Positions 45,145 to 53,385 of a stretch of 64,000 nt of DNA are shown here, one piece after another. Numbering within the stretch: position 1 is the first letter of the stretch; each line of letters begins with the position of its first letter. The stretch lies in NCBI GenBank assembly GCA_001051155.2, contig JYIP02000011.1, positions 1 to 64,000 of the forward strand, read 5' to 3'. A program made the translations under genes and the position numbers. Source of the stretch: Chrysoporthe austroafricana (lineage: Eukaryota > Ascomycota > Sordariomycetes > Diaporthales > Cryphonectriaceae). Under the pieces are notes generated by a model. That model ran no database searches, was not told where the DNA came from, and worked only from the letters and a program-made list of their open reading frames with translations.

Positions 45145-45149
45145 AAGCT
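45145..45149. repeat. left target-site duplication AAGCT
   Basis: The five bases before the left LTR are repeated exactly after the right LTR at 52493-52497, as expected for Ty3/Gypsy integration. Confidence 0.8.
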
Positions 45150-45639
45150 GTATAATGAGCACCCGAGTAGCACAAGTATTTGGTACGTCAAAGTTTATGC
45201 TAAGCAAAAGTAGTATGCAGTATGGCTACCTGTATACGGAAATATAGTTCTTGAAGGTATTTAATGTTCGTTAGGTGTTCACTATCCGTATTGGATACTT
45301 CTCTGAAATAGTACTGAGAGAAATACTTAGATTGATAACTGAAAAGTAATTATGAAATCTGTCTAACGGTAGGGAATATTCGATCTTATATATCCAGCTC
45401 TTCAATTCTGAATCGCTAAAATCTTTAAGCGATTCTAGCAACTTAATCGTTTTAATCGCTTAGCGATTCTGGCAATTGCAACTTGGAAACCTTAACCTTT
45501 TTGCTTATGTAATCCCGGATAGCCAAATATTCTTATATAAGTGGGTTCTTTATATCGGATATTGGATCCGTGCTATATCGGTCCTGGATTTACTGATCCG
45601 GCTTGTTCCTGTAACCTGAACTATTCGTTAATTTATAAT
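45150..45639 (-). repeat. 3' LTR of the chromovirus (left copy)
   Basis: 490 bp, collinear without gaps with 52003-52492. It begins GTATAATG and ends in ATAAT where the other copy has ATAAC. The 5-bp duplication sets the ends, giving GT...AC rather than the usual TG...CA. Confidence 0.9.
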
Positions 45640-45733
45640 ATTATTTCTTTCTTTGTAATTTTTATCTTTAAAGATTTTCCGTAAGTAGTCCTGCTTAATA
45701 TTCTTATTTCGGATCGTGCTTTCCTAATTCGTT

Positions 45734-46323
45734 ATGTCGGGTAGAGTCAAAAAATCTCGTTCCAAGAGTTCTTTTATTCCGAATTCGGTCGAGCGTACTG
45801 CTTTGGCTTTTCGAATTCTTTCAAATTGTATCGAAATGCCAACCTGTTCTTATTGCGAAAGACGGAACTTGGCATCTTGCCAGGTTTTTCCTAACGATTC
45901 TTCCTGCTGCATTGAATGCGTTCGTCTGGGCCGTTCCCGGTACGATATTTTGGGGCCTTTTCCTGCCAAGCTGGAAAATATTTCGCGCCAGTATCGTAAG
46001 CTTGAGAACGAAATGGAGGCTGCAGAAGACTGGCTTTGCTAGGTTTTGTCCGAAATAGATTGCTTGCGCTATCAGAAACGGATATAGTCCGAGAAAATAA
46101 AGCATGCTTTTCGTCGAAATATTATACGCATAGAGGAATTGGACTGTATCGAGCGTAAAGAGGCTGAAAAGGAGGCTGCGATTCTTGCTATTCTGTCGGG
46201 TCCGCTTCCCGAAGTTTTTCCTGATTCTTTATTATAGGAATTTAAAGAAGTAGATTGGGGTTCTATTGATTTTGCTATAGCCGGGATTTCTGGTTCTATT
46301 AATCGTTCTGTAAGTAGTTTTTA
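45734..46323 (+). pseudogene. antisense Zn2Cys6-like ORF inside the retrotransposon
   Basis: This frame opens with an ATG 95 bp inside the 3' LTR and runs opposite to gag-pol. The first 102 codons are intact; then in-frame TAG codons interrupt a frame that can be followed to about 46323, for about 195 codons. Residues 37-69 show the spacing C-x2-C-x7-C-x9-C-x2-C-x7-Y, which fits a Gal4-type binuclear zinc cluster if the last position was Cys before a G-to-A change. A Lys/Glu-rich helix follows (LENEMEAAEDW and later EELDCIERKEAEKEAA). The stops are TAG, as from CAG by C-to-T change. It ends almost against the 3' end of the chromodomain on the other strand, so it is an added convergent gene, not an overlapping frame. 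Function unknown; a DNA-binding accessory protein is an inference. Confidence 0.65.
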
Positions 46324-49300
46324 GGGTTTTTCCAGTATTCTTTAATAAGTTTTAAGTCGATATTAATTAGTTTTTCCCATATATTGTTTTCGTATCCGTA
46401 ATCTTTCCATTTGATAAAGTATTATTATCCTTATTCTCGTAATTTTGAATTAAATATTATTTCGATTTCTTATTATTATTTATCTAGATCGAGTTCGATA
46501 TCGTAATCCAGTAGAATATTTGCTAATGCCGGTTCGAAAAGCGATTTGTAAAAGACTAGGTATATCTTTATTCTTAGTAATAGGTTAAGCTTATAGCTAA
46601 TATCTGAAAGTTTCTTTGAGATTTTGAAAAGGCTTAGTTTCTTATAATCCAATTTATCGCTAGGTTTTTTGATTTTAATATTTTTGCATTTTAAGTAAAC
46701 TTTATTTCTTTTTTATAGGATTAGTTTTTCAATCTTTTTCTAGTTAGCATATTTTATTATATTTTTTATAAGTTCTTAGAATATTTTTTGAAATTTTATT
46801 TGGATATCCTTGATTTTCTTAACTCGTTATTCTGCTATTTTTGTAATTATTCCTAAGAATATTTCGTAATATGCTATTAGTTTATATTCGTATAATGCTT
46901 TGAATAGTAATATTTTTATTATTAATATCGTTATGCTATTATAAGCGAACTGTATAAGTAATAGGAATTTAATTTAATTATCCTAATTATAATTAATATA
47001 ATATTTGAAATATTATTTTATAATCTAGTTAATTCTTTCCGTTTATCCGTTTATTTTTGGGTAGAATGCTATAAATATTTTGTATTTTGTTCCGAATTGT
47101 TTTATAAGCGAAATCCAAAATTATAATATAAACTTTCTATCCTTATCGGAAATAATTTCTTATAATGTTCTATAATTGCTTACGATATTTCTTAAGAATA
47201 TATATAATAGTTCTTTTGCAATATTAGCCTTTTTATATAATAGAAAGTAATTATATTTATTTAGTTTGCAAATTATTATTAAGATACTATCGAATGCGAC
47301 TTTAATTAAAAGTTTTCGTAAGATTGGTAATTTAATAATAAAATCTAAATTAATAGAAATCTAAATAGTACTAAATACTAGTAAAAGTTATAGTAATCCA
47401 TAAGGTTTATATCGTTTTGCTTTATTCTTCTTATAGCTATTATAATTGCTAATAATATTGCGTATTCTGGATTTAAGTTCTAATAAATCCCAATATCTTT
47501 AAATCTTATTTATAATTACTATAATCCTCTAATAGCTATAAGCTAATATTTTATATATCTATTTGATATATTCGTCTTATTTTTCTGGTATTATATTATT
47601 AAGTTATTTTTCCTAATTATTAATTCTGAACGATATATTGATTTCTCGTTATTATACGAGATTTCCGTTTTTATTAATATTGAAAAAGGTCTATTTTTTA
47701 ATTTCTTTTTCCGGTTTATAATCTGCTTGTTTGCTAAGGGCATTTGCGCAAGTATTTTCTTTTCCCGGAATATACGTAATTTTAATATCGAATTGTAATA
47801 AGTATTCTGCTTATCTGATTTATCTTTTATTAAATACTTTTATTATTGTAAATATTGCTAAGTTTTTATAGTCTATAAAAATCTGGATTGGGTATTTTGT
47901 ACCGATCAAATAGTATTCTTATTCTTGGAATGCATATATTATTGTTATAAGTTCCTGATCTGGTATAGCGTATTTAAGTTCTAGTCTGTCGAATTTCTTA
48001 TTAAAATTCGCGATAAGGTATAGTTTTCTTTAGTTATCTTTTTGAATGAGTTCGCTGCCGATAGCATAAGCCGATATATCGGTATTGATTTCGAATAGTT
48101 TTATTAAGTTTGCTTCTTGCAATATAGATTTTTGGATAATTCTTTCTTTGAGTATTTCAAATGCTTTTTATTAGGTTTTTATCTATTCGAATATTTTATC
48201 TTTCTTAATTAATTCTGTTAATAGCTTAGCAATTTCTGTATATCTTTTAATGAATTATCGGTAGAAGTTGATATATCCGAGAAATAATCTGATATCGGTA
48301 ATATTTTGAGATTGCAGCTATTTTCGTATTGCTTTAACTTTATTTTTTTGCATTCTGATTTTGCTTGGTTCAATCGTATATCCCAAATAATCGACTTTTT
48401 GCATATGGAATTAGCTTTTTTCTCTATTAATAAAGAGTTTGTTATTTTCGAAGATTTATAGCATTTGTCTGATATAATATTTATATATTTCGAAGTTTTT
48501 AGAATAGATTAAGATATTGTCAAAATAGATAATAACGAAATAGTTTAAGTATTTTCGCAAGATATAATGCATATATTCCTGGAAAGATATTGGGGCATTA
48601 ATAAGTCCGAATAGCATAATAAGGTATTCGAAATAACCGTAATGTATTCTGAATGCTATTTTCTATTCGTTTCTTTCCTTAATGCGAATATATGCGTATT
48701 TTTCTTATAAGTCGAATATTATAAACTAGTTTGCGCTGCAAAGCTTATTGTATAATTCTTTTAGTAAGAGTAATAAGTATCGGTTTTTAATAATAATATC
48801 GTTAAGTTTCTTATAATTTACGCAAAGTTGTAATTTACTGTTTTTCTTTAATACGAATAGGATAGGGTATCTTGCTAGTAAATAGGATTTTTGTATAAAT
48901 CCCTTTTTAAATTATTTATCGAAATATTCTCTAAAGGTTTCAAATCGGGCTTTATTCAATCCGTAAATCGATTCGAAAATCGAATATATCCCTAGTTTAA
49001 AAGGGATTTCGTAATTGTACGGACCGTATGCTAGGAATCCTATATCTTTTTTTAGTATAAAGATTTTCTTAAATTAATAATATTTTTTTAGTATATTTTT
49101 GAATTCTAGTTTTAATCCTTTCTTTATATTTGCTATTTATAAAAATAGAAAATATTGTTTTGCTATTTTATTTTCGTAATTAATTTCTTTATAATCCTAT
49201 AATCCATATATTAGGGCTTCCGGGTATTATCCGTAATCCGGGAAGAATTATCGATTTTCTTTTTGCGGTATTTATTGCTGAAATTTTGTTTCGTATTAAG

Positions 49301-51960
49301 CCGAGCAATTGCTTTAGCGTCCGTCCACTTATAGTATTAACTTACCGTTATTTTATGCCTTAAAGTCCAATTATCGTATAGTTCTTCTCTATAAGCTATT
49401 AGCTCTTGCTAATTTGGAAATAATATAAGTATCCGTTTGAAAGCCTTTTGCTAAGCTTTTCTTAATAACTGAATCTCGCTTTGTACCTTTAATTGTAACT
49501 ATCTTTCGGGATTTTTTATTATCTTAATAGATCTGGCTAATAGTCCAATCGATTCGAGAATTATATTCCTTGAGCTAAAGTAATCTTACGATTATATCGT
49601 AATTCGCTATATCCGTAATATCGAAAGTTAGGTTTATCGTACGTTTTTGGATCGAAATAAGCAGATAATCAGTCTCTTTATCGATTATACTTTGGTTATA
49701 AATAACCGGTTTTCTTTCTATAATATATAGCGTATATGAATTCCTTTTTTGCTTTTATATAATATATACTTAATTGATAATTTTTGGTAAAATGAAATTT
49801 CCTTAAGCATTATTATTCAAAAGTGCGCTATATATTTGCCCGTTAAGTTATACTAATATCTTGATATGCTTCCAGCCTGCTATTATTACTAAGCTTAAAG
49901 ATTTTATAAGTCCGAATGTCTGCTATCCCGTTATAAGCATTCTTTTCCTTTTAGGATCGGTTCAGAATTCTAAATTGCTAGTTTTTCGAATCCTTATTTT
50001 AATTCCGTATATCTTTATCTATAGTAGTTTTCGGGGTTCTTTTGTTAGTACTAGGCGTATAGTTTTCTATTAGCATAGATTTCGTATTCTTCTGTTAAGC
50101 ATTCCTGCTATCTTACTTTTTTTTTGAAACAATCCCGGAAAAAATTGCTAAGTAATCCAATAAGGCCAAAATATCCGTTTCGATCGAGCCTAACTCTGCA
50201 ATGAAAATCCTATTCTTTATAGACTTTAACGATTAAATGCTAGTCCTTCTGGGAAAACCAGTCATTTGCTATTTTAGCCGCAAAATATTCTTTACAATTA
50301 TTATAAATATACGAGATCTATATAATCTAATAATATTGGAACGATCTTATACTAATTCTCTTATTTTCGTATTTTCTATAAGTATTATCCTGGAACCGGA
50401 TATATTTGAAAACTTCGTTAAGTATAAATCTAAAAATAGTATATTCCGTATTCCCTAAAGGTTCGAAAGTTATATTTAATAATAAGGCTTGGATATCCTT
50501 TTCGTTTTCTATATCGGAAATAACGGGTCCTTATAAGTTATTTTCCTGCTTATTCTGGAAAGTCTTTTCTTTATCGGGATTTGTTAATTCTGTAATTTCG
50601 TCAAAAGGGTTTTCTGCTAAATAATTAACTTAATGCAATTAAAGGTATTTCTTTTTGTTTTCCTCGTATTCTTCCTATTCGATAATTCCGAACAGTCCGG
50701 GATTGCTATTAAGTAAGTAATTATATTTGCTAGCAATCTTTCTTAAAAAGTTAATAGAGCAATCGGATATAGCGTCGGTTCCGATATTTCCTATTGCTAG
50801 CTATTTTTTTTCTTTCGGTATGCATAAGAACCACTTGCTTTCCTCTTTGTCTGAAAAGTATTCTTAGCAATAGTTATTATAGCAAGCGGTCTAGCTGAAA
50901 CTATTATATTTTTTTCCGGAATCCGACATTTGTCTCTCAAGGCCCCTTTTCTGTAATTGACCGTTTTTTCGCTAAGTCGCACTGAAATATCTTCCTTCTA
51001 ATAAGGGTTTCCAACCCTTTTTCCTAAGTTGCTAGCATTCCCTCGCTATATGCCTTATCTTTCCGCAATTATAGCAATTAAAACGGGGTTTTTCTTTGCC
51101 GGGGCTTTTTTATATCGTATCTAGTTTTATAAATCCTGGATAAGTCATATTACTATATATAGTATTATGCTATTATTATAGTTATCGTAAGATTTTTCTT
51201 ATATTAGCCTGGAATTTAAGGCGAAAATATGCTTGTATCCTTTATTTCTCTATTCGTCTCTTATATTATCGATTATCGATTTTAATCGCGATTTCTATAT
51301 ATTCCGAAAATTCCTGGGATCTATCAATTTTGTAAAGTTCGTTTTTGATTTCGTTCTTAAGTCTTGCGTAATACTAAGTTATTATCCAAGCCGGGTCCTA
51401 AAGTAGTTTAAATAAGATATATTTGAATTCGGCTGTATAAGCTAATACTAATTTGGTTTGCCATAACCTTATAAATTCTCGTTTTGCCGTTCTAATCTTA
51501 TCCGGATTGCTAAAAATCTTCTTAATTATTTATTCGAATCTATTAAAGTAAGAGAATATCTTAATCGTCTCTGTTTTGCATATTGCCAGATTGCTTTAAT
51601 TGTCCAGATAATTGCGAAAAAAAGGCTCGTACTAAGCCAAGGCTTTATACTAAAAGCAAGCGCTTGCAAAAACGACCTTTTTTTCTTCGGTATCAAACTG
51701 GGAACTATAATAGGCAAAATAGGCCTTATATTGAGTAATAAATCCTTGGAAAGTCTTCTGATCCTTACTGTAAGTATTGGGTTTATCGAGCTTATAAAGT
51801 TTATTAGCAATTGTAACTTGAAAGCTTTCTTCCTGGTTTTCAAATTCCTGGATGCGCTATTGCAAGGCCGCAATCTAGGCTTGCAAAGTCTAAAGCGTAA
51901 CCTGCTAGGAAAAGGACGGTATTAGAATAGGAAGAGCTATCGTATTTCCGTATTGCTAAA
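46324..51960 (-). pseudogene. gag-pol remnant of the chromovirus
   Basis: Read on the minus strand with stops ignored. Gag lies at about 51900-51000 and ends with a perfect CX2CX4HX4C knuckle at 51035-51076 (CYNCGKIRHIAREC). A protease should lie between about 50,600 and 49,700 but I cannot place its active site. Reverse transcriptase is at about 49,000-48,400: the block matching RxCVDYRKLN is near 48,820 and the catalytic YxDD reads YFDN at 48516-48527. RNase H follows near 47,900 (IDYKNLAIF). Integrase runs about 47,350-46,880 with its first Asp in LDFIIKLP, the second in SDKDRKF and the Glu in TERIN. A chromodomain is at about 46,440-46,340 (FIKWKDYGYENNIWE). Numerous stops occur throughout, so it is dead; positions are approximate. 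Confidence 0.88.
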
Positions 51961-52002
51961 AATGGATAATACTGAACCAGTCCTTAAGCAAGAGTTATCA
52001 AA

Positions 52003-52492
52003 ATATAATAAGCACCCGAATAGTACAAGTACTTGGTATGTCAAAGTTTATATTAGGCAAAAGTAATATGTAATATGGCTACTTGTATACGGAAATACAG
52101 TTCTTGAAAGTATTCAATATTCGTTAGGTATTCACTATCCGTATTGGATACTTCTCTGAAATAATGCTAAGAGAAATACTTAGATTGATAACTGAAGAGC
52201 AACTATAAAATCTGTCTAACGGTAGGGAATGTTCGATCTTATATATCCAGCTCTTCAATTCTGAGTTGCTAAAATCTTCAAGCGATTCTAGCGACTTAGT
52301 CGTTTCAATCGCTTAGCGATTCTGGCAATTGCAACTTGGAAACCCTAACCCTTTTGCTTATATAATCCCGGATAGCCAAATATTCTTATATAAGTGGGTT
52401 CTTTGTATCGGATATTGGATCCGTGCTACGTCGGTCCTGGATCCACTGATCCGGCCTGTTCCTGTGACCTGAACTGTTCGTTAGTTCATAAC
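52003..52492 (-). repeat. 5' LTR of the chromovirus (right copy)
   Basis: 490 bp, same length as the left copy. By eye about 46 positions differ, and every one is a transition; I found no gap and no transversion. It retains more C and G than the left copy at many sites but less at others, so both copies were mutated independently. Confidence 0.9.
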
Positions 52493-52497
52493 AAGCT
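52493..52497. repeat. right target-site duplication AAGCT
   Basis: Exact repeat of 45145-45149. An undisturbed duplication means the element inserted once and no recombination has exchanged its flanks since. Confidence 0.8.
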
Positions 52498-53385
52498 GAT
52501 TTGAATATTTATGTGCAGATAGGCATCATAAGGCAGTCCGCCCCCGGTAGTCTGACCAGCCGAAGCTATCGACATGACTAAAAGATGCTAGCAATATGAT
52601 TGAAAGATGCTGGAGCTTGTATTACTGAGCCCAGTGCTTTCGGCCAATCAGCTAACTGGTAGCTAACTCCTCGTGCTTGCGCAGGTGATATTGCGGGGGG
52701 GTTGCGGGGGGGGGTCGCTGGGAGGACATCTTGGTGCTATCTTCGTCAGATAAATCGGAAGACTGAAGAGAGGATGATAGGAGCGGACTTAAGTGTCGAT
52801 GGGAATCCGTAGTCCTGTAAAATTACTGGTTTCTTTTTCACTTCGATCACGTTGTTGATTTTGGAAGTTTGATTACAAGCTCGGTGGGGCACTGGAAGCC
52901 TTGTGTAAGCTCGCCCCACAAAAATATAGCATTTCGCTCCATACAGCACGTGCGCAGTGAGACATGTGAGGTAGATCCCTGCCACAATAGCTAGATTGAT
53001 TGGCGGCTAAAGTGGTTCACTCTAGTAAATCGTTCTGCCTTGCATTTGCAACTCAGGATTCCCTTACGGCACTGTTCGAGTTGCAAAGCCCGCATTCAAC
53101 CACCGCGAAACCAAGTACGGCAGGCAAACACATATTTCAGCGATATCTCAAGATCTTGTTATCATCGAGCATCATATTCAAGACATATTCATCAAGGTAT
53201 GTGTTCTGTTCCTACTCAATCGCGTCGTTGGGAGCAATTCCTAGGTGTGATTATGGATGGCCAAGCAGATGCATCAAACGGTGGTGATAGCACTCGGCAC
53301 ATCAGCCAGCCTCGTGCAAACGAGAAAGCTCTAAGCAGAATGCCATCTGAGTGATCTATTTCTATCTAAGGCTAATCTAAGTCAG
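52498..53385. other. intergenic region right of the retrotransposon
   Basis: About 890 bp with GC content back to the flanking level. Short open frames at 53000-53287 and 53040-53354 show no domain. Two G runs lie near 52,696 and 52,706. Confidence 0.45.

Follow-up and report, generated by a model that had tools for sequence, protein, structure and literature searches.

The window analysed here is a stretch of 64,000 nucleotides from Chrysoporthe austroafricana (contig JYIP02000011.1, positions 1 to 64,000). A single long terminal repeat (LTR) retroelement spans positions 45151-52493, with its gag-pol on the minus strand. On the opposite strand, between pol and the 3' LTR, lies an open reading frame (ORF) with a zinc-cluster-like head, and we read this ORF, as the best explanation, as the decayed version of an accessory gene, encoded in antisense, with which fungal chromoviruses of this lineage are equipped as standard. 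The original prediction, made from the letters of the window, was of such an accessory gene provided that related elements keep it. Its retention has been borne out by many genomic copies, purifying selection and protein relatives in other fungi.

The element is a Ty3/Gypsy chromovirus, with reverse transcriptase (RT), integrase and chromodomain in one pol between LTRs. The pol pieces are collinear and in frame -2. On the minus strand, the RT matches Pfam RVT_1 with 35.3 bits (cut-off 29.6) and the chromodomain matches Pfam Chromo with 27.6 bits (cut-off 25.1), and both pass. The integrase tail reaches 29.4 bits with SH3_Tf2-1, just under the cut-off of 30, and the same domain is above the cut-off in locus L034. 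The integrase core piece gave no Pfam match when searched alone. The LTR pair (490 bp) shows 45 differences, which are 45 transitions and no transversions. The GC content of the LTRs and pol is 0.21-0.37, and their composite index of repeat-induced point mutation (RIP) is 0.12 to 0.31, save for mid-pol (-0.06). Outside the retroelement, the GC content of the window is about 0.58-0.67 in 1-25000 and about 0.48-0.54 in 26000-64000. Loci L034, L038, L041 and L042 each have pol pieces in both orientations within 10 kb, which would suit a pair of adjoining or nested elements.

The antisense ORF meets the chromodomain tail to tail, as had been predicted, and overlaps pol by about 20 bp; the pol frame, taken to the double stop after the chromodomain, terminates near 46302. 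The predicted adjacency to the LTR also holds, with a measured gap of 93 bases between the LTR end (45640) and the ATG instead of 95 bp. The first in-frame stop, a TAG at 46040-46042, comes after 102 codons and is followed by more internal TAGs at 46085 and 46235. The ORF has 3 stops in 196 codons, against 38 in the 866 codons of the pol frame (46476-49073). As predicted, the first 102 codons are open in an element that is broken nearly everywhere else. A Zn2Cys6-like Cys pattern is present, and its predicted numbering (residues 37-69) was one too low, since the ligands span residues 38-70 when Met is counted as 1. For the first 102 codons (45734-46042), the composite RIP index is -0.70 and the GC content 0.46; for the remainder of the ORF, the index is -0.04. 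This first part does not show the RIP signature that marks the LTRs and the greater part of pol; its low RIP signal may reflect either fewer mutations or more GC from the outset. The coordinates of the features are collected in Table 1.

Table 1. Features of the retroelement and of its antisense ORF, in window coordinates.
Feature	Position	Strand	Remark
Target-site duplication AGCTG, left copy	45146..45150	.	5-bp duplication
3' LTR of the minus-strand element	45151..45640	-	Compared with 52004-52493
Leader, LTR to ATG	45641..45733	+	5' splice-like GTAAGT 45681-45686; branch-like CTAAT 45724-45728
Antisense zinc-cluster ORF, 196 codons	45734..46324	+	ATG 45734; terminal TAG 46322-46324
Zinc-cluster ligands C38 C41 C49 C59 C62 Y70 (Met = 1)	45845..45943	+	Cys in most intact relatives
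Start of predicted long helix, residues 77-101	45962..46036	+	AlphaFold2 (AF2) model
Chromodomain at pol end, with stops	46302..46469	-	Pfam Chromo
Integrase tail (Tf2-1-like SH3 domain), served as element probe	46479..46712	-	Pfam SH3_Tf2-1
Integrase core piece, used as probe	47163..47360	-	Named by position and matches in other elements
RT pieces	48456..48911	-	RVT_1 for 48459-48662
5' LTR of the minus-strand element	52004..52493	-	LTR pair comparison
Target-site duplication AGCTG, right copy	52494..52498	.	5-bp duplication

The genome (48.15 Mb, 22 contigs) has been searched with the window product, with an intact relative (L012) and with the integrase tail, and the best 150 candidates were scored out of 345, 413 and 490, respectively. 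The 102-residue window product has at least 150 genomic matches with 35-100% identity, and together with the L012 query the union comes to at least 186 places. The ORF lies downstream within 2.5 kb and on the opposite strand in 70 of the 150 scored integrase-tail matches and on the same strand in none, with no ORF match in the other 80. On the upstream side of the same 150, it occurs 3 times on the opposite strand and never on the same strand. Twelve ten-kb loci, all picked for carrying the ORF, have also been inspected, and in 11 of them it is antisense to the integrase; the twelfth, L012/L031, has no pol match.

Among 10 of the 80 integrase-tail matches without an ORF match, nine carry an ORF with the spacing CX2CX6CX8CX2CX6C, found in antisense only, which we will call type B, as distinct from the type A of the window. 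The tenth (L045) is a remnant in which a piece like the type A helix and tail was recognised by eye in translation and by tblastn, where the match is weak (E 0.31). The profiles of the two types align over 165 columns with a probability of 97.7 and an E-value of 2.5e-12. The type B pattern is supported by occurring once in each locus, never on the sense strand, and for the most part within a common sequence context. In L043-L044 and L046-L052, whose elements lack type A, a type B ORF occupies the corresponding position, and three of these are near the window's element by integrase tail.

Because RIP causes only C:G to T:A transitions, the ratio of nonsynonymous to synonymous substitution (dN/dS) has been counted on transversions only. 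The copies were assigned by eye to groups A1-A4, A1 being the group of the window; repeat records of one copy (L031-L035, L039 and the window duplicate) were left out, and the intervals come from a codon bootstrap. The transversion-only dN/dS is 0.20 (0.14-0.28) in A2 (16 copies), 0.34 (0.20-0.54) in A3 (6 copies) and 0.29 (0.20-0.43) for A2xA4, and third positions hold 62% of the transversions in A2. In the two remaining forward frames, the values are 1.67 and 2.55 for A2 and rise above 1 for A2xA4 as well (1.33 and 2.66). As to possible coding of this stretch on the minus strand, the mirror frame gives 0.28 (A2), 0.65 (A1), 0.53 (A3) and 0.44 (A2xA4), exceeding the plus frame in all four sets; its low values are as expected, since it shares third positions with the plus frame. 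There is coding selection on the antisense ORF family, and the frame is not as degraded as neutral sequence in all copies.

Of the 228 cells in the six ligand columns of 38 copies, 133 are Cys and the other 95 are Tyr, and all have TGY or TAY codons. Therefore, Tyr at a ligand position has been attributed to damage. The original prediction had the sixth ligand changed from Cys to Tyr; this is not a property of the family and represents damage of the TGC to TAC type, suffered by this decayed copy. The composition of all 228 cells led us to reject Tyr as a genuine ligand at the sixth position. Four internal columns rich in stops (29, 22, 12 and 12 stops) are otherwise nearly all Trp or Gln; another, with 15 stops, is mixed and includes Tyr and Gln. 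We read these patterns as lineages that diverged while the gene was under selection, with RIP-type mutation damaging the copies, the Cys to Tyr change of the window included, afterwards.

Relatives of the product have also been searched for at the protein level. A single-sequence search found one, and an alignment search, in which the best 7994 candidates were scored, found at least 63 from several genera, the named sources being Pyricularia oryzae, Colletotrichum orbiculare, Gaeumannomyces avenae, Microdochium bolleyi and Beauveria asiatica. These relatives are known as protein sequences. An alignment of 66 sequences (64 proteins plus L012 and the window ORF) has Cys at the six ligand positions in 65, 65, 64, 61, 62 and 62 of them, with gaps or Tyr in the remainder. 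The intact relatives have about 170-230 residues and are built from a zinc-cluster head with six Cys, a long helix, a basic region and a tail. In the AF2 models, the predicted helix covers residues 77-101 of the window ORF and residues 77-120 of P0003, an intact relative of metagenomic origin, and it probably dimerises.

The Zn2Cys6 domain (PF00172) follows the spacing CX2CX6CX5-12CX2CX6-8C. Type B fits this rule in 9 of 10 loci (with Tyr allowed at ligands) and in its relative P0065 from Cytospora mali, which bears the UniRef name "Zn(2)-C6 fungal-type domain-containing". Type A (CX2CX7CX9CX2CX7C) has seven residues where the rule has six. The window ORF has no Pfam PF00172 match, and L012 (8.6 bits) and P0065 (11.6 bits) do not reach the cut-off of 21. 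The comparison of PF00172 with 40 relatives lists 2 matches under the cut-off, with a best E-value of 0.33. For two AF2 models, the VIA-align rows contain HAP1, or HAP1 and Leu3, which are zinc-cluster DNA-binding domains, with low Z. A sequence search of the PDB gave five matches (E 0.019-2.9), located in the helical part. None of 19 matches in a viral fold library was significant, and a single scan of viral contigs with P0003 found nothing. A Zn2Cys6 cluster binds two zinc ions and DNA, and the antisense protein may do likewise.

Splice-like signals are found in the leader between the LTR and the ATG. Many type A copies have GTAAG, then a branch-like CTRAY near the ATG, and then AG. The strict form of this pattern is present in 19 of 37 copies, compared with a mean of 0.37 and a maximum of 2 in 200 shuffles; L042, in which the start was not found, was left out of the scan. 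In A1 and in L012, the AG ahead of the ATG is missing. A comparable intron-like stretch follows the zinc cluster in type B, exactly where P0065 continues without it. In L048 and L051, long T tracts with N have been observed between the zinc cluster and the helix, within this stretch. An intron on the antisense strand would be expected to outlast retrotransposition of the sense RNA.

Zinc-cluster heads have been swapped between elements while the tails stay constant. The transversion divergence of A2 vs A3 is 0.27 in the zinc region and 0.06 in the tail, the latter equal to the divergence within A2 (0.06); the corresponding values are 0.29 and 0.06 for A3 vs A4, and 0.18 and 0.08 for A2 vs A4. 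In locus L030, the leader is that of A1 (divergence 0.01) and the head that of A2 (0.03), but the tail is distant from A1 as well as A2 (0.32 and 0.24). Loci L043, L044 and L046 have an integrase tail 71-78% identical to that of the window and, by eye, an A1-like leader, yet they carry a type B ORF. Among 27 P. oryzae proteins, 99 of 300 pairs have heads less than 70% and tails more than 85% identical, and none of the 300 shows the reverse (heads >85%, tails <70%); 51 of the 351 pairs were left out for too few aligned positions, and many sequences are near-duplicates, so that the pairs are not independent. A tentative proposal, which we regard as possible rather than probable, is that the head is an exchangeable recognition cassette, traded while leader or tail is kept, which would give each lineage its own DNA-recognition specificity. 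The antisense protein could then be the basis of self/non-self or copy-number control among competing retrotransposons of one genome.

On balance, we lean towards an LTR-driven, antisense-encoded, dimeric zinc-cluster DNA-binding protein that regulates the gag-pol transcription of its own element. Antisense transcription would begin in or beside the 3' LTR, and the leader would be spliced out of the antisense transcript. The protein would then dimerise and bind DNA through its zinc cluster, with the element's own LTR or leader as the most likely target, and the bound dimer would set the level of gag-pol transcription. Such an autoregulator would be comparable in position and logic to HBZ of human T-cell leukemia virus type 1 (HTLV-1). 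Transcription, splicing, zinc and DNA binding, the LTR as target and the sign of the regulation are what we infer here.

Several observations weigh against this picture. The strict leader pattern is missing in 18 of the 37 copies, and RIP-type changes were judged by eye to be the cause. In the window's own group, A1 (11 copies), the transversion-only dN/dS is 0.41 with an interval of 0.17-1.52; omega within A4 is 0.81, on 30 counted changes; and comparisons with L012 give 0.32-0.47, with the distant pairs saturated. The 80 of 150 integrase-tail matches without an ORF match, of which 10 were looked at, also count here; with a fixed number of candidates scored in each search, these figures give no complete counts or rates. 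Finally, the type B scan accepted Tyr in place of any ligand, and stops in place of the fourth and fifth, in DNA whose AT-richness makes Tyr codons frequent.

Other explanations have been weighed on the same evidence. The three internal stops of the window ORF, and a 135-residue open frame on the minus strand that covers the same stretch, would suit a chance open frame in a degraded element. This is extremely improbable, being contradicted by the selection in frame, the conserved Cys, the antisense position and the relatives in other genera. A chance ORF was rejected on the at least 150 genome matches, the antisense bias, the ligand columns and the purifying selection in frame. The protein could instead be an integration or chromatin tether, whose zinc cluster binds defined host sites and picks insertion sites together with the chromodomain. 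The antisense gene does adjoin the chromodomain end of pol, and the heads are swapped as if target choice varied, but an antisense transcript has no obvious way of supplying a partner to the integrase, and we consider this role unlikely.

The coding gene might be real and still act mainly through its RNA, with a spliced antisense transcript that dampens the element or feeds its silencing and a protein of minor importance. Spliced antisense Ty3 transcripts of Blumeria hordei, judged non-coding in the available passages (PMC10648671), would agree with this. However, a role of the RNA leaves the purifying selection on amino acids and the Cys ligands unexplained, and we give it little credence. 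About as doubtful is that the gene serves the host, either because elements captured a host zinc-cluster gene or because the host took one over, with selection acting on the host copy. The candidate for this is L012 (L031:6463-7116 on the minus strand; G000:C12:3390462-3391115), a solitary intact copy of 218 residues with all six Cys, which lies in DNA of normal GC content (0.53). Within the surrounding 10 kb, neither the RT nor the integrase nor the integrase-tail piece of the window's element finds a match. It fits either a host gene or a domesticated copy. On the other hand, L012 is one place only, and selection has been detected among the element copies themselves, within A2 and A3.

The antisense protein resembles the Gal4-type Zn2Cys6 regulators in the type B spacing, in the order of head and predicted helix and, at low Z, in the HAP1/Leu3 VIA-align rows. 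It differs from them in that the Pfam cut-off is not reached, the type A spacing deviates and the gene is antisense in a retroelement. To our knowledge, the fungal protein is also unlike these regulators in being small and without a known regulatory domain. In the open-licence literature, judged by titles and abstract openings, no antisense zinc-cluster gene in a fungal retrotransposon has been found. For fungal or Tcn1-type chromoviruses, a survey of 2010 (PMC2864245) notes in the legend of a figure one further ORF, whose function is unknown, and part of this gene may therefore have been drawn before; the text consulted gives no strand, sequence or domain for that ORF. In Blumeria hordei, spliced antisense transcripts of transposable elements, Ty3 included, were judged not to encode meaningful peptides; they are similar in being spliced and antisense to fungal Ty3 elements, and differ in that the available passages contain no zinc-cluster gene (PMC10648671).

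The antisense accessory-gene arrangement, known from plant Retand elements and deltaretroviruses, is now seen in fungal chromoviruses with a different protein. The new features are the many copies, the measured purifying selection and the spread of relatives over several genera of fungi. The annotation of a group of fungal "hypothetical proteins" would change to that of likely retroelement genes, and the function of antisense genes in retroelements could be studied in fungi as a tractable system.

As far as the available part of the source goes, the plant Ty3 elements Retand, Grande and RIRE2 have antisense TRP28 ORFs between pol and the 3' LTR; those of Retand occur in nearly all lineage members, with predicted DNA binding and a proposed regulatory role (PMC11963269). 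The fungal ORF has the same position, here with a short pol overlap, and differs in the chromovirus host, the short region, the zinc cluster, the measured selection and the splice-like leader. TRP28 (PF04195) has no match with the window ORF (E up to 10), and the list of the 25 commonest families for 40 relatives does not contain it. Therefore, the fungal gene is Retand-like in position and not a member of that family. HBZ is expressed from the 3' LTR of HTLV-1 in spliced and unspliced forms, lowers viral/LTR expression and has a dimerising DNA-binding-type basic leucine zipper (bZIP) domain, and other deltaretroviruses have antisense APH-2/3/4, according to the passages available (PMC10186651). 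The likeness to HBZ is an antisense gene close to the 3' LTR; the window ORF has no bZIP match, and none is in the families listed for the 40 relatives. The difference is a bZIP there and a zinc cluster here, with expression and action shown for HBZ and inferred for the fungal protein. If the fungal protein does regulate the LTR of its element, the same solution would have arisen in three lineages of retroelements, each time with a different putative DNA-binding protein.
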